Under the pieces are notes generated by a model that did not search any database, was not told the origin of the DNA, and worked only from the letters and a program-made list of their open reading frames with translations. 64,000 nt of DNA from Streptomyces niveus (GTDB lineage: Bacteria; Actinomycetota; Actinomycetes; Streptomycetales; Streptomycetaceae), in assembly GCF_002009175.1 (NCBI RefSeq), contig NZ_CP018047.1, positions 7,245,001-7,309,000 of the forward strand, read 5' to 3'. Below, piece by piece: positions 18,505 through 30,041 of this stretch (position 1 is its first letter; each line of letters opens with the position of its first letter). The position numbers were made by a program, and so were the translations under genes.

Positions 18505-19776
18505 GTGAGTATTTCAAGACGCGCCGTCATCGCATCGGCGCTGGCCGGCACAGCAGCGGCCGGTGGTGTCCTCGGCACTCCGCAGGCGGGCGCCGCGCCC
18601 GCGCCGCGAGGCAGGGCCCAGGCGGCACCCGCCGCGAGTCCCCCCGGCGACGTGGTCGGTAAGATCAGCGTCGGGTATCAGGGCTGGTTCGCCTGCAAGG
18701 GCGACGGCTCCCCCATCGACAGCTGGTGGCACTGGAGCCAGAACGCCGGCCAGCCGCCGTCCCTCAGCAATACGACCATCAAGTCGTGGCCCGATATGCG
18801 GGAGTACACACGTACTTTCCCCACGGCCTATCCGAATCTGAACAATGGGCAGCCGGCCTCGCTGTTCTCCTCGCACGACCAGCAGACCGTCGACACCCAC
18901 TTCCGGTGGATGCGCGAGAACAACTGCGACACCGCCGCGCTCCAGCGCTTCAGCCCCATGGGCGGCGAAGGCCCGATCCGGGACGCGATGGCGCGCAAGG
19001 TGCGCCAGTCGGCGGAGGCGAACGGCCGGAAGTTCTACATCATGTACGACGTCACCGACTGGCGGGCCATGCAGTCGGAGATCAAGCAGGACTGGACCAA
19101 CAAGATGAAGGCGTACACGTCTTCGAGCATGTACGCCAAGCAGAACGGCAAGCCCGTCGTCTGCATCTGGGGCTTCGGATTCGCCGACGACAAACGCCCG
19201 TTCGCGCCCGCGGAGTGCCTGGACGTCATCAACTGGTTCAAGGGGCAGGGCTGTTACGTCATCGGCGGTGTGCCGACGCACTGGCGCAACGGCAACAGCG
19301 ACTCCCGGCCCGGCTTCTCCGGTGTCTACCACGCGTTCAACATGATCTCGCCGTGGATGGTCGGACGGATGGGCACCGTCGCCCAGGCCGACCAGTTCTA
19401 CCGGGACGTCAACACGCCCGACAAGGCCGACTGCGACGCCAGTGGCATCGACTACCAGCCGTGCGTGATGCCGGGAGACCTCCAGTCCAGGCATCGCGCC
19501 CACGGCGACTTCATGTGGCGGCAGTTCTACAACATGTGCCGGCTGGGCGTCGCGGGGATCTACATCTCCATGTTCGACGAGTACAACGAGGGCAACCAGA
19601 TCGCCAAGACGGCGGAGAACGGCTCGATGGTCCCCTCGGGCTCCGGCATCTGGGCCCTCGACGAGGACGGCACGTCCTGCTCGTCCGACTACTACCTCCG
19701 GCTCACCGGTGACGGTGGGCGGATGCTGAAGAAGCAGATCGGGCTCACCGCGACCCGGCCGACGCCGCCGAGGTAA
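18505..19776 (+). CDS. Secreted GH99/GH71-like glycoside hydrolase domain protein
   Basis: 423 residues from GTG 18505, supported by GGGAGGA 8 bases upstream. The N-terminus is a twin-arginine-type signal (SRRAVIASALAG, cleavage near AGA), so it is probably exported folded. The mature part matches the GH99/GH71-like barrel family: VGYQGWFACKGDG, WWHWS, the DTHFRWMRENNCDTAALQRF block, KFYIMYDVTDW, GVYHAFNMISPWMVGR and ISMFDEYNEG. Related enzymes are endo-alpha-mannanases or glucanases; the substrate here is unknown. It is the first of several carbohydrate genes in 18-34 kb. It converges on the ROK-fusion gene, 55 bases between stops. Confidence 0.88.
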   Translation: MSISRRAVIASALAGTAAAGGVLGTPQAGAAPAPRGRAQAAPAASPPGDVVGKISVGYQGWFACKGDGSPIDSWWHWSQNAGQPPSLSNTTIKSWPDMREYTRTFPTAYPNLNNGQPASLFSSHDQQTVDTHFRWMRENNCDTAALQRFSPMGGEGPIRDAMARKVRQSAEANGRKFYIMYDVTDWRAMQSEIKQDWTNKMKAYTSSSMYAKQNGKPVVCIWGFGFADDKRPFAPAECLDVINWFKGQGCYVIGGVPTHWRNGNSDSRPGFSGVYHAFNMISPWMVGRMGTVAQADQFYRDVNTPDKADCDASGIDYQPCVMPGDLQSRHRAHGDFMWRQFYNMCRLGVAGIYISMFDEYNEGNQIAKTAENGSMVPSGSGIWALDEDGTSCSSDYYLRLTGDGGRMLKKQIGLTATRPTPPR

Positions 19777-19831: not shown

Positions 19832-22525
19832 TCAGCCGGCGGGCAGGTGTCGCGCCCGTGTCTCCCGTCCCCGCAGCCTCGGGGTGAACGTCGCGTGGAA
19901 GATCGTGGACGCGGCCCCCACGGCGGCGGCCCCCGCGCTCAGCACCGACGGCTCCACCTCGACCCGGCGCAGCCGCCGGGCGGTCGGGTACTCGTTGACC
20001 GTACAGGCGATCTCGGACAGGTAGAAGTCGGCGACGTCGTCCGTGAAGAAGGGCCCCCCGAGGACGATCAGATCGATGTCCAGCAGATCGATCAGCCCCA
20101 GCGCGCCCCGCCCGACGGCCTGCGCCACCTCGCGTACGGCCGCCTTCGCGGCCCGGTCGCCGGCCGCCGCCGCCCGGCCCACGGCCAGATACGCGGCGGT
20201 GCTCCCGCTTGTCGTGGCCGCCGGACGCAGGCCGCCGCGCGCCGCCAGATCGGGTACGGACACCGGCGGATTGCACTCGGGCAGGATCTCCGGACGGCCG
20301 TCCTCGTCCACCCTCCCCAGCGCGATGGCGCAGAGCTGGCCGAACTCGCCCGCGTTCGAGCTGACGCCCCGGTAGATGTCACCGTTCAGATAGAGCCCGG
20401 TGCCGACGCCCGTACCGAGGTAGAGGTACGCGAAGTCCCTGGCCCGCCGGTCGCGGCCGATCCAGCGCTCGCCCGCCGCTGCGGCGGTTGAGTCCTTCTC
20501 CATGATGACCGGGCACGGGAAGTGGTCCTTGAGGAGATACAGCAGCGGAAGATCGCCCCAGGCCGACATCAGGGGCGGTCCCAGTACGGTCCCGGACGCG
20601 ATGTCCACCGGGCCCGGCACCGCGACCCCGATCCCCAGGAACCCCTCGGGCCGTACGGCGCCGCCCGCCTCGGCCAGCGTCTCCCGGCCCAGCGCCGCGA
20701 CCCGCTCGACGAACTCCGCCGGGTCGGTGTCCGCGCTGACGGACCGGGTGCGGGTGCAGACGATCGCGCCGTCGAGGTCGATCACGACCGCCGTGAGCAG
20801 TTCGGGGTCGATATGAATCCCGAGCGCGTGCGCGGCGGCTCCGCGCAGCCGTACGGGAGTACGCGGTTTGCCCGATGTCGCGCGCAGCTGAGCGTCCTCG
20901 ATCAGGATGCCCCGGTCGAGCAGGGAGCGGGCGATCCGGGACACCGACTGCTGGGTGAGGCCGGTGCGATGGGCGATCTCGCCGCGCGTGATGGTGCCGG
21001 AGAGCCGTACGGTCTCGATGACCACGCACTCGTTGAAGGAGCCCAGATCGATCTGGTTGACACCGCTCCAGGTGTGACCGCGCACGGAGTTGGCCGTCGC
21101 GTCCCCGGTCCCGAGATGTCCCGCGACGTTCTCGCGCAGCCACCGCACGGTGCGGTACGGGTCGTCGGCGCGGCCCGCCGCGTACCGCTCCAGCTCGGCG
21201 GCCAGATCGAGATAGACGCGCCGGGAGGACTCCGGATGACTGGTGCTGTCGAGAGCGATCATGGCCCGCAGGAAGGTGCGCCAGGTGGACCGCGCGGGAA
21301 TGTGATGAGACGTCACCGGGCGTGTGGGGTCAGGTGGTTGAGGGGCAGCGTCGGCGGGCGCGTCGTCCCACAGGGTGATCGCGTGCAGCGCGAGATCCGG
21401 ATGACGCCGGCTTGCCTGCGCGAGATACGCACCCAGCGCGTGGTCGCCTTCGGCGGTGAGGTGGGTGGTGTGGCCGGTCGCCGTGTGCCGCGCCGGGCCG
21501 TGCCCGGTGGGCGTGGCGTACACGTCGGTGCTGTGCGCCGGAACGCCGCGCGCGGCGTCGGTGGCGGCGTGCGTGGTGTGGCTGGGGCCGGTCTGTGCAG
21601 GGCGGCGAGTCGCTGCCTCGGTACCCGTGCCGGGGGCTGGGTGGCCTTCGGTCGTGGCCGCTGTTTCGGCGGTGTGGCCGGTCGCCGTGTACCGCGCCGG
21701 GCCGTGCCCGGTGGGCGTGGCGTACACGCCGGTGCTGTGCGCCGGAACGCTGCGATCGCCTCCGGCGGTGGCGTGCTCCGCGTTGTTGTGACCGGCGGGC
21801 GTGGTGTGCGAGCTGGGGCCGGGCCCGGCGTCGTTGCCCGGGCCGTGGTTCGCGGCCCGGTGGGCAGCCGCCCCCGCTCGGTGAGCGTTGTCCACGACGG
21901 TCGCCGACTCCGGGCCGGAGGCCCGTCGTGCCGTGTCCAGGGCGTGGTCCAGGCTCGCCAGGACGTCCGCGCCTATCACCGTGCCCGCCGTGGCCGGGGT
22001 GCTCGGGACCAGTCGGGTGCCGGCCAGCAGGACCGCGCGGTGGGCGTCCACGTACAGGCCCATCACCCACACGTCGGCGTCCGGCAGTGGCGGCCGGGTC
22101 GGTACCGACGGGGCGACCGGCTCGTCGGGGACGAGCCGCCAGCGGCGCCGGATGCCGGCCACCGTGGCGTGCGAGAGGCCCAACTCCCGTGCCACCGCCC
22201 GCGACGCGCCGCTGCCGCCGGGCGCGAGCAGCGTACGCGTGACGACCTCGGCCTCGTCGACCGTCGCCGGTCTGCCGGTACGCGGCCGGTGTTCGAGACC
22301 GTCGATGCCGGCGCTCGTCCAGCGCTGGCGCCAACTGCCCACCGTCTGCCGCGACACCCCGAGCCGGCGCGAGATCTCCGCGTCACGCAGCCCCTCGGCC
22401 GCCAGCAGCACGACCCCGGCGCGGGTGGCGAGCGGACCCCCCTCGTCGGCCCAGCGGCGCAGGACGGCGCGGAGTTCGGGGGAGAGCGCGCCCTCGGCCG
22501 CGGACGGCGGCGCCGGCTCAGACAC
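19832..22525 (-). CDS. Fusion regulator: IS630-type transposase N-terminus plus ROK repressor
   Basis: 897 residues, about twice the ROK norm. Residues 1-130 match the N-terminus of IS630 transposases: a first HTH (VVLLAAEGLRDAEISRRLG, SRQTVGSWRQRW), the DGLEHRPRTGRP hinge, and a second HTH (AVARELGLSHATVAGIRRRW). Residues 150-220 resemble the DDE core (VWVMGLYVD, ATVVDN with Asp212) but the first acidic motif reads LLAGTRL and the last Glu is absent. Residues 215-360 are a His/Thr/Gly-rich linker with a 26-residue direct repeat. LGAYLAQASRRHPDLALHAI (364-383) matches a later IS630 segment. Residues 507-541 form a ROK-type winged HTH (GEIAHRTGLTQQSVSRIARSLL), and 565-880 a ROK sugar domain in which the zinc Cys motif and signature His are lost. 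GTG 22525 has AAGGGGG upstream and overlaps the GH38-like stop by 8 bases. Confidence 0.92.
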   Translation of the reverse strand: MSEPAPPSAAEGALSPELRAVLRRWADEGGPLATRAGVVLLAAEGLRDAEISRRLGVSRQTVGSWRQRWTSAGIDGLEHRPRTGRPATVDEAEVVTRTLLAPGGSGASRAVARELGLSHATVAGIRRRWRLVPDEPVAPSVPTRPPLPDADVWVMGLYVDAHRAVLLAGTRLVPSTPATAGTVIGADVLASLDHALDTARRASGPESATVVDNAHRAGAAAHRAANHGPGNDAGPGPSSHTTPAGHNNAEHATAGGDRSVPAHSTGVYATPTGHGPARYTATGHTAETAATTEGHPAPGTGTEAATRRPAQTGPSHTTHAATDAARGVPAHSTDVYATPTGHGPARHTATGHTTHLTAEGDHALGAYLAQASRRHPDLALHAITLWDDAPADAAPQPPDPTRPVTSHHIPARSTWRTFLRAMIALDSTSHPESSRRVYLDLAAELERYAAGRADDPYRTVRWLRENVAGHLGTGDATANSVRGHTWSGVNQIDLGSFNECVVIETVRLSGTITRGEIAHRTGLTQQSVSRIARSLLDRGILIEDAQLRATSGKPRTPVRLRGAAAHALGIHIDPELLTAVVIDLDGAIVCTRTRSVSADTDPAEFVERVAALGRETLAEAGGAVRPEGFLGIGVAVPGPVDIASGTVLGPPLMSAWGDLPLLYLLKDHFPCPVIMEKDSTAAAAGERWIGRDRRARDFAYLYLGTGVGTGLYLNGDIYRGVSSNAGEFGQLCAIALGRVDEDGRPEILPECNPPVSVPDLAARGGLRPAATTSGSTAAYLAVGRAAAAGDRAAKAAVREVAQAVGRGALGLIDLLDIDLIVLGGPFFTDDVADFYLSEIACTVNEYPTARRLRRVEVEPSVLSAGAAAVGAASTIFHATFTPRLRGRETRARHLPAG
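21467..21750. repeat. 80-bp direct repeat inside the ROK-fusion gene
   Basis: Copies at 21467-21546 and 21671-21750 are identical at 78 of 80 positions and lie 204 bases (68 codons) apart. They encode the repeated VPAHST...YATPTGHGPAR...TATGHT segments of the linker at residues 260-285 and 328-353. Recombination between copies would remove 68 codons in frame. Confidence 0.9.
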
Positions 22526-25500
22526 CCGAGCCCCCTTCCGCGCCGCCGCCGCGGACCAGCCGCAGCGTCAGGATCTGGAAGGGCCGCAGCGTCAGCGCCA
22601 CCGACCGGCCGGTGTGCGCGCGGACCGCGAGCGTGTCCTCCAGGAGGTCCGTCTCCCGTACGGCGGCCACGGGGAAACCCGCGGTCAGCGTCGTACGGGC
22701 CCGGCCGCCCCGCGACTCGTACAGCCGCACGACCACATCGCCCGACCGGTCGTCGGCGAGCTTCACGGCCTCGATGACCACATCCGGATCGTCCACGGCC
22801 ACCAGCGGTTCCGCCGGCCCCGCAGACGGGCCCGGCCGCAGCGGCAGGTTGAGGGCGTAACCCTCGGAGATCGCGTCACCGACGTCGGCGCCGGGGCGCA
22901 GCGTGTGCCGGAAGCGGTGCGGCCCGCGGTCGGCGTGCGGGTCGGGGCTGTGGGCGGCACGCAGCAGCGAGAGGCGGACGAGCGTGGTGGTCCCGGCGTC
23001 GGCGCGGGTGTGGCGCGACACGTCGTATCCGTACGTCGCGTCCGACGCCAACGACACCCCCCAGCCGTGCTCGCCGACATGGATCCAGCGGTGCGCCCAC
23101 TGCTCGTAACGGGCCGCGTCCCAGCTGGTGTTCTCGTGCGTGGGGCGCTCGACATGGCCGTACTGGATCTCGCCGCGGCTGTTCTCCGCGTGCACGTCCA
23201 GCGACCAGGCCGCCTTGAGCAGTGTGTCCTGTTCGCGCCAGTCGACGTCGGTGTCGATCGTCAGCGCACGGCTGCCGGCCGTCAGGGTCAGCCGCTGCGT
23301 GACGGTGGACCTGCCCGTGCCGCGCTCGACCCGGATCCGCCCCAACAGCGGCCCACTGTCGGTCACTTCGACACACGACGCGGTGTCGAGATCGCGCCGG
23401 GTGCCGCGCGCGGGGTCACCGAGAGCGTCGGCGCGCGGCGCGTCGAGGCCGGACGCGCTCCACCGCGCGGGGTCGTCCCGGTGCAGTTGGAGCAGATTGC
23501 CCGCGCCACCGGGCGCGATGGCCTCGCGGTCCGCCGTCAGATCGCGCGCCGAGCGCACGAGCCCCGCCGAGTCGACGTGGACCCGCAGCAGCCCGTTGTC
23601 CAGCAGATGCCCGCCGCCCCGGTCCGGATCGGCGGCGGTGACGGTCACCGGCGCCGTGCCGCCGAGCGGCAGCCCGGCCGTACCCCGGCCGAGCCCGGGG
23701 GCCTCGGCCAGCACGGCGAGCCGCCCGCCGGACAGCGGCTGGCCCGCCTCCACCGCGCCAGGCCCGGTGAGCCGGTACCGGTCGAGGACGACCACCTCGC
23801 GGCGGGCGCGCGGCCCGGCGTTGAGGACCGTGTCCCCGTCCGGCCCGCCCGCCGACCTGAGGATCAGGCTCTCGAGCCTGCGACGGATCTCGCGGTGGGC
23901 CTGCTCCGCCTCCTCGTGCACCCAAGCGATGGCGCCGCCCGCCAGGATGTCGCGGCTCTGGTGCAGCAGGACCCGCTTCCACAGGGCGTCCAGTTCGTCG
24001 TACGGATAGGGCACCGCGTCCCGTACGGCCGCCGTCGCCGACCACAACTCGGCCTCGCGCAGCAGCGATTCGCTTCGGCGGTTGCCACGCTTGGTACGGG
24101 CCTGGCTGGTGTACGACCCGTGGTGCGTCTGCGCGTACACCTCGCCGCGCCACACCGGCGCGTGCGGATACTCGTCGAGCGCGTCCCGGAAGAAGTGCGC
24201 GGGGTGCTGGATCTCGACGCGCGGTGAGCCCTCCAGATCGGCCAGCCTGCGGGCGCGTTCGAGCATCTCGCGGGTGGGGCCGTCCTGTTCGCGGTCCGCG
24301 CCGTCGTCACTGTCGGCTCCCCGGTCCCCGCCGAACGGCAGCAGCGAGCGGCTGCCGCCGCCCTTGTCCGCGTACGCCGCGACCACGTCGGCCAACTCGG
24401 GCCCGGTGAGCGTCGCGTGGTGCGCGCCGGCGGGCGGGCAGTGTGTGAAGATCCGGCTGCCGTCGGCGCCCTCCCACCAGAACGTGTGGTGGGGAAGGGA
24501 GTTGGTGTCGTGCTCGGCGAGCGTGTGGCCGAGCAGCCAGCGCGCCCCGGTCAGCGCGGCGAGCTGTGGAATCGCGCCGGTCATACCGCCGGAGCCGGGC
24601 AGCCAGACGCCGTCGGAGTCCAGGCCCAGCTCCTCCCGATAGAAGCGCCGGCCGTGTACGAGCTGTCGCGCCAGCGACTCCCCGCCGGGCACGATCGCGT
24701 CCGGTTCCACCCACATGCCGCCCACCGGCACCCAGTTGCCCCGTGCGACGGCCTTGCGAATCCGCTCGAACACGTGTGGATGCTGGTCCTTCATCCAGGC
24801 GTGCTGCTGCGCGGACGAGGCGGCGAACACCAGCTCCGGGTACTCCTCGGCCAGCGCGGCCATGCTGCTGAAGGCGCGGGCGCTCGCGCGCACGCTCTCA
24901 CGCATCGGCCGCAGCCGGGCCGCTCCGGAGCGCGCGTGACCGACGGCCGCGACGGTGTGCGCGGACTCGTGCGCCCGGCGCGCGAGAGCCGGCGCGAGGA
25001 TGTCCCGCGCATAGGCGGCCGTCCCCGGGATGTCACGCGGGTCGACCGCGTCCACGGTCCGCTCCAGGGCCCGCAGGATCTCGTGCCGGCGCGGCAGTTC
25101 GGCGGGCAGGGCGCGCATCAGGCTGTACAGGACATCGATGTCATGAATGAGCTGCCAAATGTTCTCGTCGCGTACGGCGAGGTCCGCGCGGAGCAATTGG
25201 TGAAGCGGTTCGTCCCCGGCGGTGACCGGGTCGCCGAAATGGGCCCCGGCGCCCGTGGCGGCGTCGATCGCCGGATTGGCCGCGGCCTCGACGAGCAGCC
25301 GTACGGGCTCGCCGCCGCGCGCGGCGGCCGTCACGGTCACGGTCCTGTTGTGCGGGTGCAGACCCTGGAGCGGTGTGCCGTGCTCGTCGTGGACCAGCCC
25401 CTCCGCCCCCTCGCCGCCGAGGTCTACGACCGCCTCGACCCGCAGGCCCGCCCACCGCTCGGGGATGTCCGCGCCGAGCCGGAACCAGCTGGTGGACCAG

Positions 25501-25697
25501 GGTCCGCCGCCCCAGGTCCCGCCGACGACGAACGGCGTGTATTCGGCGCGCAGCGCGACATCGACGGGCACCGGCTCGCCCGGGATGTGCCAGGCCCCGA
25601 TCTCCATGGGAAGCCGCCCGGTGTACAGCGCGGGACGCAGCCGGCAGTCGAGGAAATGGGCTATTCGCGCCTCTCCGGACTTCCTTCGGTCATGCAT
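22518..25697 (-). CDS. GH38 alpha-mannosidase-like protein lacking catalytic residues
   Basis: 1059 residues with complete GH38 architecture: N-terminal beta domain to about 240, catalytic barrel from 249, three-helix bundle around 500-610, C-terminal beta sandwiches. Family landmarks are preserved (NWVPVGGMWVEPDA, HHTFWWEG, GPTREMLERAR, SYTSQARTKRGNRRSE, KRVLLHQ). But VGHAHID is VGHARSG (His256 to Arg, Asp258 to Gly), WLPDSFG is WLPGSGG (nucleophile Asp368 to Gly), and the QFHDILPG His is Arg (QSRDILAG, residue 582). These match all four zinc ligands and the nucleophile of characterised GH38 enzymes, so hydrolysis is very unlikely. No signal peptide is present; it should be cytosolic. ATG 25697 has AAGGG upstream. 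It is translationally coupled to the ROK fusion. Confidence 0.9.
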   Translation of the reverse strand: MHDRRKSGEARIAHFLDCRLRPALYTGRLPMEIGAWHIPGEPVPVDVALRAEYTPFVVGGTWGGGPWSTSWFRLGADIPERWAGLRVEAVVDLGGEGAEGLVHDEHGTPLQGLHPHNRTVTVTAAARGGEPVRLLVEAAANPAIDAATGAGAHFGDPVTAGDEPLHQLLRADLAVRDENIWQLIHDIDVLYSLMRALPAELPRRHEILRALERTVDAVDPRDIPGTAAYARDILAPALARRAHESAHTVAAVGHARSGAARLRPMRESVRASARAFSSMAALAEEYPELVFAASSAQQHAWMKDQHPHVFERIRKAVARGNWVPVGGMWVEPDAIVPGGESLARQLVHGRRFYREELGLDSDGVWLPGSGGMTGAIPQLAALTGARWLLGHTLAEHDTNSLPHHTFWWEGADGSRIFTHCPPAGAHHATLTGPELADVVAAYADKGGGSRSLLPFGGDRGADSDDGADREQDGPTREMLERARRLADLEGSPRVEIQHPAHFFRDALDEYPHAPVWRGEVYAQTHHGSYTSQARTKRGNRRSESLLREAELWSATAAVRDAVPYPYDELDALWKRVLLHQSRDILAGGAIAWVHEEAEQAHREIRRRLESLILRSAGGPDGDTVLNAGPRARREVVVLDRYRLTGPGAVEAGQPLSGGRLAVLAEAPGLGRGTAGLPLGGTAPVTVTAADPDRGGGHLLDNGLLRVHVDSAGLVRSARDLTADREAIAPGGAGNLLQLHRDDPARWSASGLDAPRADALGDPARGTRRDLDTASCVEVTDSGPLLGRIRVERGTGRSTVTQRLTLTAGSRALTIDTDVDWREQDTLLKAAWSLDVHAENSRGEIQYGHVERPTHENTSWDAARYEQWAHRWIHVGEHGWGVSLASDATYGYDVSRHTRADAGTTTLVRLSLLRAAHSPDPHADRGPHRFRHTLRPGADVGDAISEGYALNLPLRPGPSAGPAEPLVAVDDPDVVIEAVKLADDRSGDVVVRLYESRGGRARTTLTAGFPVAAVRETDLLEDTLAVRAHTGRSVALTLRPFQILTLRLVRGGGAEGGSGV

Positions 25698-25729: not shown

Positions 25730-25758
25730 ATGTAAAACCAAGAGTGTTATCAAGTCAA
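25730..25758 (-). promoter_or_regulatory. Promoter of the GH38-like/ROK-fusion operon
   Basis: On the minus strand TTGACT (25753-25758) and TTACAT (25730-25735) are separated by 17 bases, a good vegetative-type promoter, about 32 bases before the ATG at 25697. I see no perfect palindrome overlapping it. Confidence 0.65.
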
Positions 25759-25951
25759 CGCCTGTCCCGATTACTTCTGAGTTCCTGGTGGTGAGGGCCT
25801 TGCGATCGAATTGTCAGTTGAATTCCCGCCCGGAAAGTTCTCCTCCTGGACATTAATTGGCCTGACGATTCGGACGGGAAGAACGGTCCGGGAGCGGCTG
25901 GGGGGCGGTTGTGAAGCCGCTGGCGAGGGGCGGCCGGGGGCGGGGCATGAA

Positions 25952-26024: not shown

Positions 26025-27104
26025 TTACGGCCGCACGGGCTCCGGCCTCGCGCACCCGCTGCGCACCGGCAGCCACAGGCCCTCGCGTGCCGCGTCGAGC
26101 AGTGTCAGCATGGTGTCGAGGACATGGTGGGCGAGTTCGGCGGACGCCCGGTGCGGCCGGTCGTCGGCGAGCGCGGTCGCCAGATCGGCGAGTCCGGTCC
26201 CGCGCCCGGCGTCCCGGTAGCCGCCCGTCACCGGCAGCCGTTCCCACTCGCCCCCGGCCCGGTGCAGCTCCACCGGCCCGTCGAAACCGTTGGGGTCCGG
26301 CACGGAGAGCGAACCCTCGGTGCCGTGCACCTCGATACGCGGCAGCCGCGCCGCGTGGACGTCGAAGCTCATGACCAGTGTGGTGAGCGCGCCGCCCGTG
26401 TGCTCCAGGAGCCCGGTGACATGGGTGTCCACCTCGGTGTCGAAGCGCTCGCCCGCACGCGGCCCGCTGCCGATGGTCCGCTCGGCGCGCGGCCGGGACG
26501 CGGCGCCGGTGACCCGGCCGACCGGCCCGAGCAGATGGACGAGCGCGGAGAGGTAGTACGGGCCCATGTCGAGCAGCGGCCCGCCGCCGGGGCGGTAGTA
26601 GAACTCCGGGTCGGGATGCCAGCGTTCGTGCCCTGGCGTGGTCATGAACGCGGTGGCGGCCACCGGCGCGCCGATGAGCCCGTCGTCCACCGCCGCCCGC
26701 GCGCTCTGCGTCGCCGTACCCAGCACGGTGTCGGGGGCGCAGCCGATCCGCAGCCCCCGCTCCCGCGCCAGGGTGAGCAGACCGTCGGCCTCTTCGCACG
26801 TCATGGCCAGGGGTTTCTCGCCGTACACATGCTTTCCCGCGTCGAGCGCGGCGCGCGCCACCTCTGCGTGCACGGCGGGCAGGGTCAGGTTCAGTACGGC
26901 GTCGACGTCGGGGCGCCGGACCAGTTCGGCGACCGAGGCGGCGACGGCGACGCCCGGTGTGCGCGCGGCGACGGCCTCGGCGCGGCCCGTGTCGAGGTCG
27001 GTCACGGCGGTGAGCCTGACGTCGTCCAGCCGTTCCAGTGTCTTCAGATACTCGCCGCTGATCTTGCCCGCGCCGACCATGCCGATCCTCAGCGGCTCGC
27101 CCAC
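26025..27104 (-). CDS. Gfo/Idh/MocA family oxidoreductase
   Basis: 359 residues from GTG 27104, which overlaps the ThuA stop by 16 bases with GAGAGGGG upstream. The NAD(P)-binding Rossmann motif IGMVGAGKISGEYL is at residues 7-20, the cofactor/substrate motif EKPLAMTCEEADGL near 95, and the catalytic-region GPYYLSALVHLLG near 175. The family oxidises or epimerises sugars and inositols with NAD(P). Coupled to ThuA and a racemase-type enzyme, it probably acts in catabolism of the sugar imported by the divergent ABC system. Confidence 0.94.
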   Translation of the reverse strand: MGEPLRIGMVGAGKISGEYLKTLERLDDVRLTAVTDLDTGRAEAVAARTPGVAVAASVAELVRRPDVDAVLNLTLPAVHAEVARAALDAGKHVYGEKPLAMTCEEADGLLTLARERGLRIGCAPDTVLGTATQSARAAVDDGLIGAPVAATAFMTTPGHERWHPDPEFYYRPGGGPLLDMGPYYLSALVHLLGPVGRVTGAASRPRAERTIGSGPRAGERFDTEVDTHVTGLLEHTGGALTTLVMSFDVHAARLPRIEVHGTEGSLSVPDPNGFDGPVELHRAGGEWERLPVTGGYRDAGRGTGLADLATALADDRPHRASAELAHHVLDTMLTLLDAAREGLWLPVRSGCARPEPVRP

Positions 27105-27793
27105 AGCAGCCCCCTCTCGGTCAGCGTCCGTACCTCGGGCACGTCGAAGTCGTCCATCTTGTGGCCGATCGTGGAGACGAAGACGCGGCCCGCGCCCCAG
27201 TTCCTGGTCCATACGGCGGGCATCGTGACCGGCCGCGACCGGTGTTCGTCCGCCTCGAAGCCGATGGTCGCCAGGACGTCGATCAGGGGGTCGGTGGCCG
27301 TCCAGTACCGCTCGGTGTGCACGTCGAAGTCGGCGAGGCCCCCGACGACCGGATGGTCCGCCAGCTCCGGCGGGATCCGCACGGTGTGGTCGGCGAAGCC
27401 GGGCGGATGCATCAGGAACTGTCCGCCGGTGAGGAGTTGGTAGTCGACGCTGCCGCGGAAGGAGTCCACGATGCCGCCGTGCCAGCCGCCCAGACCCGTT
27501 CCCGCGCGGACCGCCGCGGTGAGTCCGGCGCACTGCTCGGCGCTGATCTCGCCCATGGTCCAGCACTGGACGACGAGGTCGGTGGCGGCCAGCAGCGCGG
27601 TGTCGGTGTAGACGTCCAGGGTGTCGGCCGTCTCGACCGTGAAGCCGTTCTCCCGGAGGAACGGCAGGAAGAGGTCCGTGGTCCTGACGGGCTCGTGGCC
27701 CTCCCAGCCGCCACGGACGACCAGCGCGCGCCGGGAGCCGGGTGCGGAGCCGGAGCCGGGGGTGGGCGGTGGGCCGGAGGTGTGGGGGGTCAT
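27089..27793 (-). CDS. ThuA-like domain protein
   Basis: 234 residues of the ThuA (trehalose-utilisation, glutamine-amidotransferase-like) family: RALVVRGGWEGHEPVRTTDLF near the start, GLGGWHGGIVDSF near residue 98, HPPGF, the DFDVHTERYW region and a C-terminal GAGRVFVSTIGHKMDDFDVPEV. Members work in sugar catabolism, including keto-sugar metabolism alongside Gfo/Idh/MocA enzymes. The ATG overlaps the racemase stop by 4 bases (ATGA) and the Gfo start overlaps its own end, so the three are translationally coupled. Confidence 0.93.
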   Translation of the reverse strand: MTPHTSGPPPTPGSGSAPGSRRALVVRGGWEGHEPVRTTDLFLPFLRENGFTVETADTLDVYTDTALLAATDLVVQCWTMGEISAEQCAGLTAAVRAGTGLGGWHGGIVDSFRGSVDYQLLTGGQFLMHPPGFADHTVRIPPELADHPVVGGLADFDVHTERYWTATDPLIDVLATIGFEADEHRSRPVTMPAVWTRNWGAGRVFVSTIGHKMDDFDVPEVRTLTERGLLWASR

Positions 27794-29076
27794 GGTCGTT
27801 GCACGCTCCCGTCGGTGTTGCGCAGCAGGGCCCAGCGGTCGTGTTCCAGCGGCTCGGGTACCGGATACCGGCGTGCCGCCGCCTCGTCGAAGTCGACCCC
27901 GTGACCGGGTGTCTCGTGCGGGGACAGCGCGCCGTCGTGCGCCACGACGGTACCGGGGAACACATCGAGCACGGCAGGCTTGAACACGGCGGCCTCCTGC
28001 ACCCCGAAGGCATGACTGCTGATGTTCATGGCGAGTGTGGCGGCCTGCGCGACCGGGCTGACATCGGCGGGACCGTGCGGAGCGAGCCGTACTCCGCGCA
28101 GTTCGCAGTAGACGGCGAGCTTGCGGGCCGGGGTGAGTCCGCCGAGCGTGGGGACCCGGATCCGGGCGAAGTCGATGTCGGGGCCGTCGAGCAGCGGCAG
28201 GAACTGGCCGACGTCGTGGAAGAGTTCACCCACGGCGAGCGGTACGGGGGAGCCGGCGCGCAGCGCGGCGAAGTGGCGCGCGTCCTCCGGGGCGAGCAGA
28301 TCCTCCACGAAGTACAGCCCCGCGTCCTCGACCCGGCGCAGGAAGTCCCGGGCCTGCCGGGGATCGAGCCGTTCGTGTACGTCGTGCAGCAACTCGACCT
28401 CGTCGCCGACCTGTTCGCGTACCGCCGTCAGGACGCGTGGCACGGTGCGTACGTACGCGGCGGAGTCCCACGGCACCGAGCGGGTGCGCAGCGCGTGCGC
28501 GTCTGCGGATCCGGCGGCGGCGGTGCCGTAGGTGTCGGAGCCGGGTACGGAGGCCTGGACACGGACATGGCGGTAGCCGCGCTCGCGCGCCGCCACGACC
28601 TTCGCGGCGATCTCGTCGGCGTCGGCGCCGCTGACATGGGTGTAGGCCTCGGCGTGGGTACGGACCCGGCCGCCGAACAGCGAGTACAGGGGGGCGCCGA
28701 GGCGTTTGGCCTTGAGGTCCCACAGGGCGACGTCGACACCGCCGAGCGCGTTGCCGGTGACCGAACCGCCTCTCCAGTAGGCGCTGTTGAGCAGCAGCCG
28801 GTGGATGTCGTCGATGTCGTCGGGATCGCGCCCGACGAGCATCGGGGCCAGGTAGTCGTCGAGCACGGAGCGTACGGCGAGGGTGCGCTGCGGGTCGCTC
28901 GCGCAGCCGAGGCCGTAGAGCCCCGGCTCGTTGGTCTCGACGCGGACGACGAGATGGGGGCAGCCGTGCGGTGCGGTGAGGAAGGTGGAGACGGCCGTGA
29001 TGCGGATCTTCGCACCGCGTTCCTCGACCCAGGGAGCGGGCGCGAGGATGTCGGAGCGGGCATCAGGCTGAGCCAT
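27790..29076 (-). CDS. Enolase-superfamily sugar-acid dehydratase (mannonate dehydratase/RspA-like)
   Basis: 428 residues from ATG 29076; the longer open frame upstream reads through the promoter. The enolase fold has an N-terminal capping domain (to about 125) and a barrel with metal ligands Asp232, Glu258 (FVEDLL) and Glu284 (VGELFH), the catalytic His234 in DVHERLD, and His334 in APHGPADVSPV. This matches the mannonate dehydratase/RspA group, which dehydrates sugar acids such as D-mannonate or D-gluconate. First gene of a coupled unit with ThuA and Gfo/Idh. A palindrome that may bind the upstream IclR lies in its leader. Confidence 0.9.
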   Translation of the reverse strand: MAQPDARSDILAPAPWVEERGAKIRITAVSTFLTAPHGCPHLVVRVETNEPGLYGLGCASDPQRTLAVRSVLDDYLAPMLVGRDPDDIDDIHRLLLNSAYWRGGSVTGNALGGVDVALWDLKAKRLGAPLYSLFGGRVRTHAEAYTHVSGADADEIAAKVVAARERGYRHVRVQASVPGSDTYGTAAAGSADAHALRTRSVPWDSAAYVRTVPRVLTAVREQVGDEVELLHDVHERLDPRQARDFLRRVEDAGLYFVEDLLAPEDARHFAALRAGSPVPLAVGELFHDVGQFLPLLDGPDIDFARIRVPTLGGLTPARKLAVYCELRGVRLAPHGPADVSPVAQAATLAMNISSHAFGVQEAAVFKPAVLDVFPGTVVAHDGALSPHETPGHGVDFDEAAARRYPVPEPLEHDRWALLRNTDGSVQRP

Positions 29077-29093
29077 ACGAACTCCAGCGTACA

Positions 29094-29118
29094 GATAGCA
29101 GGATGGTGTACTGCTATC
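29094..29118. promoter_or_regulatory. Candidate IclR operator upstream of the racemase-type gene
   Basis: GATAGCA and TGCTATC, perfect 7-base arms 11 bases apart, lie between the -10 and the start codon of the gene at 29076, next to the IclR gene. A bound protein here would block transcription. Confidence 0.65.
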
Positions 29119-29120
29119 CG

Positions 29121-29150
29121 AACGTAGAGAGAGCGTCTTTAATTTGTCAA
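29121..29150 (-). promoter_or_regulatory. Promoter of the racemase-ThuA-Gfo operon
   Basis: On the minus strand TTGACA (29145-29150) and TACGTT (29121-29126) are 18 bases apart. The -35 is a perfect consensus hexamer, rare in this window. Confidence 0.7.
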
Positions 29151-29180
29151 TGAGTTTACCAAATAAGGGGGGAGCGGTCT

Positions 29181-29975
29181 TCAGTGCTGCCCGAGCCGTT
29201 TGAGGAGGGTCCGCAGTGAATGTGCGGCCTCCGTGACGGCCCCGGCGATCTCGCGTACGCGGGTGTCGTCCATCCGGCTCTTGGGCGCCGAACAGCTGAT
29301 GGCGTCGCCGCCGCCGTGCCCGGTGCCGAGCGCCACGGCCACGCACCGGATGTCCACGGAGTTCTCGCCGTCGTCCATCGCCCAGCCCTGCAACCGCGCC
29401 TCGGCGAGCTGGCGGATCAGCTCGTCGGGATCGGTCACGGTGTCGGGGGTGAGCCTGGCCAGCGGCCAGTCCAGCCGGCGCTGCACCTCGGCCGCGTCGT
29501 ACTGCGACAGCATCGCCTTGCCGAGTGCCGTCGCGTGCGCCGGCAGCCGGCGGCCCACCGCCGAGTACATCCGCAGCGCGTGCCGCGACTCGCGTTTGGC
29601 CAGGTAGACGACGTCCGTTCCGTCCAGCCTGCCCAGATGCACCGATTCGCCCGTCTCCTCGGCGAGGGAGTCGAGCACCGGCCCGGCGAGGCTCGCGACG
29701 TCGTCGCCCTCCAGATACGCGGTGCCCGTGAGCAGGGCCTTGAGCCCGAGGCTGTAGCGGGTGCCCGAGGCATCCAGGTCCACCCAGCGCCGTGCCTCCA
29801 TCGTCCGCAGGATCGCGTGCAGGCTGCTCTTCGGCACGGCCATCGCGCTCGCCATCTCGGCGAGCGAGAGCCGGGCGCCCTCGGTGCCGAGCAGTTCGAG
29901 CACCTCGAGTACCCGAGCCGCGGACTTGACCTCCTCGGGCTTACGCCCTCGCGCTGCTGCTGCCACCGATTCCAC
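29181..29975 (-). CDS. IclR family transcriptional regulator
   Basis: 264 residues from GTG 29975, chosen because GGAGCGGAGG sits 5 bases upstream; the frame is open to 29996. The N-terminal winged HTH (residues about 15-70, LSLAEMASAMAVPKSSLHAIL) is followed by the C-terminal effector domain with ESVHLGRLDGTDVVYLAKRES and SCSAPKSR. It sits between the sugar-acid operon and the divergent ABC importer and probably controls both: palindromes lie upstream of each. Such regulators usually respond to the sugar or a degradation product. Confidence 0.94.
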   Translation of the reverse strand: MESVAAAARGRKPEEVKSAARVLEVLELLGTEGARLSLAEMASAMAVPKSSLHAILRTMEARRWVDLDASGTRYSLGLKALLTGTAYLEGDDVASLAGPVLDSLAEETGESVHLGRLDGTDVVYLAKRESRHALRMYSAVGRRLPAHATALGKAMLSQYDAAEVQRRLDWPLARLTPDTVTDPDELIRQLAEARLQGWAMDDGENSVDIRCVAVALGTGHGGGDAISCSAPKSRMDDTRVREIAGAVTEAAHSLRTLLKRLGQH

Positions 29976-30041
29976 GTCAACCTCCGCTCCCCGCACCGGC
30001 GCCCCTCGGCGAACCGGTCAGCACGATTCTCGACGTGCGTC

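Follow-up and report, generated by a model that had tools for sequence, protein, structure and literature searches.

A ROK-type regulator of Streptomyces fused to an IS630 transposase-derived arm, and its predicted composite operator

A ROK-type regulator of Streptomyces niveus carries the N-terminal part of an IS630 transposase in the same reading frame. The gene lies in a window of 64,000 nucleotides (contig NZ_CP018047.1, positions 7,245,001 to 7,309,000), which is the whole stretch of DNA analysed; positions below are those of the window. The ROK-IS630 fusion is real, old, and conserved in Streptomyces and its relatives, and its residues ~31-475 go back to an IS630 (Tc1/mariner-type) transposase. 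We consider it likely, with a probability of about two in three (0.66), that this host-transposase fusion holds a composite operator of roughly 135 bp with both arms. What the data show is the fusion, its ancestry, the selection acting on it, and the conservation and distribution of two promoter elements, named E1 and E2.

Gene and domain organization

The fused regulator (897 aa, GTG start) is encoded at 19832..22525 on the minus strand. The open frame runs uninterrupted from 22525 to 19832, as an earlier note on this DNA had claimed, and shares 8 bp with the upstream GH38 gene. In the 7.99-Mb single-contig genome, only the fused gene gave a match covering the arm (E <= 0.001); five weak, sub-cut-off IS630-type HTH matches were found elsewhere. 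The 13 other genome matches to the fused protein begin at query residue 472 or later.

The N-terminal arm contains an IS630-type paired HTH region (residues ~31-135; 22121..22435, minus strand), identified by Pfam, NCBIfam, and profile comparison. The HTH1 helix spans residues 53-69 and the HTH2 helix residues 112-129, with the hinge DGLEHRPRTGRP between the two units (residues 75-86; 22268-22303, minus strand). The two transposase-type HTHs and hinge described previously were therefore recovered. Pfam assigned HTH_29 to residues 35-93 (58.4 bits); HTH_32 scored 29.7 bits, under its cut-off of 33.7. Two remnants of the DDE core follow, both on the minus strand. Part 1 (residues 146-205; 21911..22090) contains WVMGLYVDAHRAVLLAGTR and has no first Asp motif; in part 2 (residues 363-475; 21101..21439), LHAITLWD replaces the LDN motif and WRTFLRA replaces WxNxVE. 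Between them lies a hypervariable low-complexity insert (residues ~206-362; 21440..21910, minus strand), which holds a 'VDN' and a 26-residue repeat that occurs twice; Tandem Repeats Finder returned 0 rows for this insert. Residues ~211-360 are lineage-specific, with 76-88% gaps among 28 representatives. The low-complexity segment of the earlier note is thus present, but it interrupts the DDE remnant and is not only a linker before the ROK part. Full-length homologues vary from about 700 to 1021 aa.

Residues ~486-897 form a complete ROK regulator with its own winged HTH, also as first proposed. The winged HTH (residues 486-560; 20846..21070, minus strand) has the recognition-helix region HRTGLTQQSVSRI, and the ligand-binding fold covers residues 561-880 (19886..20845, minus strand). 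Pfam placed a MarR_2 winged HTH at 502-541 and ROK (PF00480) at 570-873 with 108 bits. The CxCGxxGCxE zinc motif, preceded by GExGH, is a usual ROK feature. Both were seen in the rows of the Listeria repressor Lmo0178 in our comparison and not in the query, which has no Cys cluster and reads GEFGQ where Lmo0178 has GEFGH. With the full model, all 50 Foldseek rows shown were ROK regulators and sugar kinases; the best structural matches were 5f7q/5f7p, and Mlc (1z6r) was also matched.

Origin of the N-terminal arm

Profile comparison of the arm (32 sequences) with 19 Streptomyces IS630 transposases gave an hhalign probability of 99.7 and an E value of 8e-27. The HTH part alone matched the IS630 profile at 1.2e-27 (124 columns, 36% identity); the DDE part alone gave a weak match (probability 51, E 1.6e-4), which counts against the assignment. 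A database search with the arm profile retrieved 44 proteins, including IS630 transposases carrying PF13358. The best of these matched at E 1.9e-37 with 32% identity, covering 88% of the first query sequence, so the suspected IS630 origin of the N-terminus stood up to this similarity check. The NCBIfam IS630 model matched residues 35-128 through profile positions 2-107 of 299, significantly but below the curated cut-off (60 bits, cut-off 100). The paired N-terminal HTHs and hinge of IS630 transposases are present in the arm.

The intact DDE triad is not. All three acidic positions are absent in 7/7 fusion rows aligned with true IS630 transposases: the VDEKSQIQAL block is missing, and the LDN Asp and WxNxVE Glu are substituted. 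Several fusion rows have an Asp two residues past the LDN position (LWD), which is absent in divergent rows. Since the acidic positions are lost, the natural reading is that the DDE core is catalytically dead. The degraded core of the earlier note was thus borne out for the first acidic motif and the last Glu. The retained 'VDN' did not survive as a catalytic motif: VVDNAH (210-215) opens the lineage-specific insert.

A sequence search of the arm against the PDB found SETMAR (E 3.3e-6), followed by Pax5 (9.8e-5), Pax8, Prd, and Pax6, with Pax5/8/6 at 9.8e-5 to 1.4e-3. Foldseek also ranked SETMAR first (E 0.02), with Pax5, Mos1, Tc3, and Pax6 within the first seven rows; no row fell under E 0.001, and the Pax matches had E values of 0.11-0.28. 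Pfam PAX gave a weak match in one member of the second fused subfamily (20.2 bits, cut-off 22). VIA-align aligned mainly residues 1-73; the best rows were generic HTHs (sigma region 4), and Pax5 was at rank 11. These rows and the modest Foldseek E value count against the transposase reading. The 50 VIA-align rows shown had no RNase H-like row beyond transposase entries aligned over their HTHs, and neither structure search (Foldseek, VIA-align) recovered an RNase H-like core from the arm. The predicted arm fold (pLDDT 86.4) consists of the HTHs, then strands and helices, in an order that in this model is compatible with a truncated RNase H-like core.

Distribution, phylogeny and selection

The protein search identified 192 relatives; among the 120 listed, 115 are at least 690 aa and thus fusion-sized. 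Of the named full-length homologues, a Streptomyces niveus protein is the nearest, at 97% over the whole length. The survey of the spread of the fusion found named loci in six genera: Streptomyces, Actinacidiphila, Streptacidiphilus, Catenulispora, Actinospica, and Nonomuraea. Within Streptomyces the fusion is patchy, as only 9/121 genomes drawn had a match (E <= 1e-100). When 148 genomes from across the class were searched at E 1e-60, the fusion turned up in the own genome only, and 4 gave ROK-only matches. Unfused ROK orthologues (49-56% identical) occur in Kribbella, Glycomyces, Leifsonia, Humibacter, Phytomonospora, and Microlunatus, in metagenome-assembled genomes labelled Microbacteriaceae or Actinomycetales, and in one entry under the name Streptomyces sp. 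SID13031. Two conserved ROK peptides served to retrieve the loci, and one of the two lies inside the recognition-helix region; sharing of the recognition helix is therefore partly by selection of the loci.

Quick phylogenetic trees with SH-aLRT support were reconstructed for the ROK part and for the arm. In the ROK tree, the unfused ROKs fall into a single clade (98) whose neighbour is fusion clade I (98), which comprises 41 fused and 3 cut rows. A second fused subfamily falls outside these two clades (89), where long branches meet the outgroup. Four loci (L056, L057, L074, L077) were scored fused by tblastn, the cut contigs L062, L079, L082, and L131 were kept apart, L124-L126 served as outgroup, and L002-L008, L063, L091, L099, L111, L120, L123, and L127 were left out. 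The fused versus unfused state requires one change on the ROK tree; fusion arms and IS630 transposases are also separated by one change on the arm tree (support 74), in which the long-branch 'transposase' P0157 groups with the fusions. The simplest reading of these trees is a single capture of the transposase part; alternatively, the unfused clade may have lost it, or capture may have happened twice.

Fusion subfamily II (L128:7980-10157 and L129:7944-10154, two intact genes) has an arm about 40% and a ROK part 47-51% identical, and its genes are also near GH38 genes. Its recognition helix is TGLTPQAVSRI in place of TGLTQQSVSRI. Genome G055 holds both subfamilies, and G037 subfamily II only.

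Within the arm, conservation among 28 representatives (<85% identical) is highest in the HTH pair; a second conserved domain is made up of residues 146-205 and 363-475. The dN/dS ratios were estimated by the Nei-Gojobori method from 25 sequences, using only pairs with pS<0.5; they are rough, since the pairs are non-independent and the genomes very GC-rich. The median was 0.24 for the HTH pair (286 pairs), 0.48 and 0.48 for the DDE remnants (227 and 163 pairs), 1.7 for the insert (30 measurable pairs), 0.07 for the ROK winged HTH (299 pairs), and 0.18 for the ROK domain (287 pairs). The value for the HTH pair is in the purifying range, and the arm therefore looks translated and used. The fusion is orthologous among its hosts, under selection, and non-mobile, as expected of a host-transposase fusion.

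Locus context

The gene directly upstream, of GH38 alpha-mannosidase type (22518..25697, minus strand), is the first of a two-gene operon with the fusion. Further upstream are Gfo/Idh/MocA, ThuA, enolase-superfamily, and IclR regulator genes (26025..29996, minus strand). On the other side lies a conserved convergent neighbour (18505..19776, plus strand), GH71-like by weak match and a possible locus partner; it has no Pfam match at E 0.001 and is possibly an unnamed glycoside hydrolase. The frequent gene order among fused loci is IclR, enolase-superfamily, ThuA, Gfo, GH38, fusion, and then in many the convergent GH71-like gene. GH38 is within the fetched stretch in 33/38 loci with arm and ROK: directly upstream in 27 as scored by script, overlapping the fusion by a few bases in two further loci (L048 and L075), and downstream on the opposite strand in four. 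Among the 34 unfused loci, GH38 matches were found in none of the fetched stretches. In the two of these read gene by gene (L086 and L108), a sugar-binding protein (by Pfam for L086 only), permeases, and an enolase-superfamily gene lead into the ROK. In L077:8037-10474 (Streptomyces sp. 150FB), arm and ROK are in different frames, consistent with a frameshift or sequencing error; both E1 and E2 are kept there.

Operator elements

E1 (TAACACWCWTGGTTTTA; 25730..25753, minus strand) is a 17-bp imperfect dyad between the -35 (TTGACT, 25758-25753) and the -10 (TTACAT, 25735-25730) of the operon promoter, which are 17 bp apart. In the locus comparison it was scored present at up to 3 mismatches. It was found in 33/33 main fused loci with upstream DNA, in 8/8 divergent fused loci (Catenulispora, Streptacidiphilus, Actinospica, and Actinacidiphila oryziradicis), and in 32/34 unfused loci, where the misses (L104, L114) are contigs ending before that place. 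These promoter counts exclude L045, L062, L079, and L082, which are cut or have no DNA upstream, as well as three Streptomyces fragments (L091, L099, and L120); L135 is the same locus as L078, so that 34 main fused rows are 33 loci. At the same threshold, 111 kb of control loci gave 0 matches, and the two intact subfamily-II loci lack E1. In the 7.99-Mb own genome E1 occurs at one place (3 mismatches). At 1 mismatch it occurs once each in 8/121 Streptomyces genomes, which are exactly those with a main-type fusion gene; the ninth fusion genome, G037, has subfamily II only. Fused and unfused lineages alike carry E1, which makes it the probable ROK operator; a site within the promoter implies that the regulator represses. 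In three loci with GH38 absent from the stretch (L059, L072, L084), E1 and E2 precede the fusion gene itself, which points to autoregulation; in the divergent locus L080, E1 is in front of another gene. Many Kribbella loci (e.g. L086:14746, L089:14835) have a second E1 about 12-14 kb off in the opposite orientation, which suggests a larger regulon in the unfused lineage.

E2 (GTCAGGCCAATT...GAATTCAACTGAC; 25813..25866, no strand assigned) is an inverted repeat upstream of E1 and the predicted site of the arm. It consists of two inverted copies of TGTCAGNNNAATTA and lies about 115 bp upstream of E1; the distance from the start of the pattern GTCA-N44..48-TGAC to the E1 core is 112-117 or 149 bp. 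The dyad was found in 32/33 main fused promoters (L061 lacks it) and in 1/8 divergent ones, at another position (163). In 31 unfused loci, none of the 49 E1 sites had it, a count made without L095 and L105, which have too little upstream DNA. After thinning to <80% identity, the counts were 29/30 main fused versus 0/42 unfused. Shuffled sequences contained the dyad in 73/6800 (1.1%, mononucleotide) and 63/6800 cases (0.9%, dinucleotide). The fused loci share descent and are not independent replicates, which weakens these statistics. The half-site consensus is tTGTCAGgc.AATTa (42 half-sites, 21 promoters <80% identical). Information was 1.15/1.12 bits in the arms, inflated by GTCA as the anchor, 0.55 in the spacer, and 0.44/0.50 in the flanks; the AATT, which was not anchored on, is kept in 30-41 of 42 half-sites depending on position. 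Centre to centre, the half-sites are separated by 42 bp, or about four helical turns, and so face the same side of the DNA, and the shift from 116 to 149 bp is 33 bp, about three turns. The exact pattern occurs at one place in the own genome. Comparative footprinting, with E1 common to both groups and E2 in fused loci only, thus argues for the long composite operator that the earlier note had suggested.

Some promoters depart from this arrangement, and the divergent fused and subfamily-II loci among them speak against the model. Five of the eight divergent fused promoters have another dyad, GTCA-N27-TGAC, at 126-127. The two intact subfamily-II genes have no E2 of the usual span, and a 67-bp TGTCA..TGACA pair in L128 was taken as chance. 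In some Actinacidiphila promoters (L055, L057, L058), a further palindrome, GCAGGTCACGACCTGC, is found between E2 and E1. Terminal repeats taken from around other IS630 copies were also compared: a few read GTCANNAATT (GAGTCAGGAATTC, GAGTCATTAATTC) versus GTCANNNNAATT in E2, and repeats such as CTAGTCTTCTGAGTCAGGAATTC (L142, L144, L150, L153) have GTCA-NN-AATT versus GTCA-NNNN-AATT in E2. An E2-like terminal repeat was seen in 4/21 rows of one set and 0/16 of the other, and the likeness is post hoc.

Alternative explanations

Judged largely from one clade, E2 is probably bound by the transposase-derived arm. Against the composite operator is the very fact that E2 follows essentially one clade, so that any co-inherited regulator would fit; the transposase-derived part might have been kept for dimerisation, spacing, or protein contact, with E2 the site of an unrelated regulator. 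The other dyad of the divergent fused loci also speaks for this explanation, which we regard as unlikely, at odds of about one to three. Against it, the HTH helices are the best-conserved and most constrained piece of the arm, and E2, where present, keeps its fixed distances from E1. The single exact match in the own genome is unlike the site of a global regulator. The obvious candidate, the IclR of the locus, was rejected as the E2 binder: four genomes (G047, G105, G261, G262) keep E2 without an IclR orthologue, their best paralogues being 44-46% identical versus 82-100% elsewhere.

In favour of an internal translation start, with only the ROK part functional and the N-terminus a relic, are a small number of late-starting database entries (such as P0159 and P0160, 481-482 aa) and some annotated N-terminal fragments that stand alone (P0122). 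However, these late entries begin inside the DDE remnant, the frames are open across fused loci, and the HTH pair is under purifying selection. The idea that only the ROK part is made, raised in the earlier note, is contradicted by the median dN/dS of this pair, on which both the pseudogene and the internal-start readings were rejected; we hold it to be very improbable. No supporting point was found for an artefact of assembly or frame, nor for an IS that inserted recently. The same architecture in six genera, and the single arm match in the genome, leave this explanation almost no weight.

Proposed mechanism

The bivalent reading of E1 and E2 suggests the following model. Within actinobacteria, probably on a single occasion, a ROK-type repressor gained the N-terminal portion of an IS630 transposase. 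Selection retained the paired HTH, and the DDE core decayed until it was no longer catalytic. The winged HTH of the ROK part would, in the main fused group, bind E1 in the promoter of the GH38-regulator operon, and the transposase arm the two inverted TGTCAGNNNAATTA half-sites of E2, the centres of E1 and E2 being roughly 100 bp apart. We infer the assignment of arms to sites, an oligomer, a loop, repression, and a ligand: a dimer or higher oligomer might bind bivalently, perhaps with a DNA loop, which would make one dedicated, tight, autoregulated switch, and a ligand at the ROK domain would lead to release of E1. The most economical way to read this is as a repressor that binds bivalently, controls its own gene, and has few targets.

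Comparison with known systems

Like the ROK repressors Mlc, NagC, Lmo0178, CsnR, and RokB, the query has a winged HTH, a ROK fold, and a predicted operator in the promoter. For RokB, AACACACGTG in the site reported as 28 bp, in the part of the source consulted, resembles AACACWCWTG of the query E1 (PMC4856308). The query differs from these repressors in its extra N-terminal arm of ~480 residues, its second, distant operator element, and the absence of CxCGxxGCxE, with GEFGQ instead of GExGH. The arm shares the paired HTH and the collinear DDE region with IS630 transposases; it differs in the loss of the three acidic positions, a shrunken core, a single copy in this genome, and a fixed operon place.

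The eukaryotic PAX and SETMAR proteins resemble the fusion in principle. PAX domains have a Tc1/mariner origin, and in animals new transcription factors are recognised to arise when regulators take over the DNA-binding domains of transposases. The PAX paired domain and SETMAR show paired-HTH sequence similarity to the arm with a weak fold match; unlike them, the query is bacterial and fused to a metabolite-sensing repressor, and the family gave only a weak Pfam PAX match, in the one member of the second fused subfamily. The accessible part of a 2025 paper places SETMAR with DNA-binding host-transposase fusion genes that regulate expression (PMC12062965). ROK regulators and transposase capture are each already known. 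No paper in the literature surveyed joins the two with a matching composite operator in bacteria; the titles and abstract openings there, with most subscription journals outside coverage, described no ROK-transposase fusion.

It appears somewhat more probable than otherwise that the fusion is a bacterial counterpart of PAX/SETMAR capture, in which the paired domain brought terminal-repeat-like recognition and E2 arose beside a pre-existing ROK operator. The fusion is a candidate case of bacterial capture in which the catalytic core is dead, the sister lineages are unfused, and the predicted operator element occurs only next to the fusion. How a captured domain and the site that it targets evolve together is directly testable here with small proteins and short DNA. 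If this is true, the unfused and fused lineages would represent the before and after of operator evolution.
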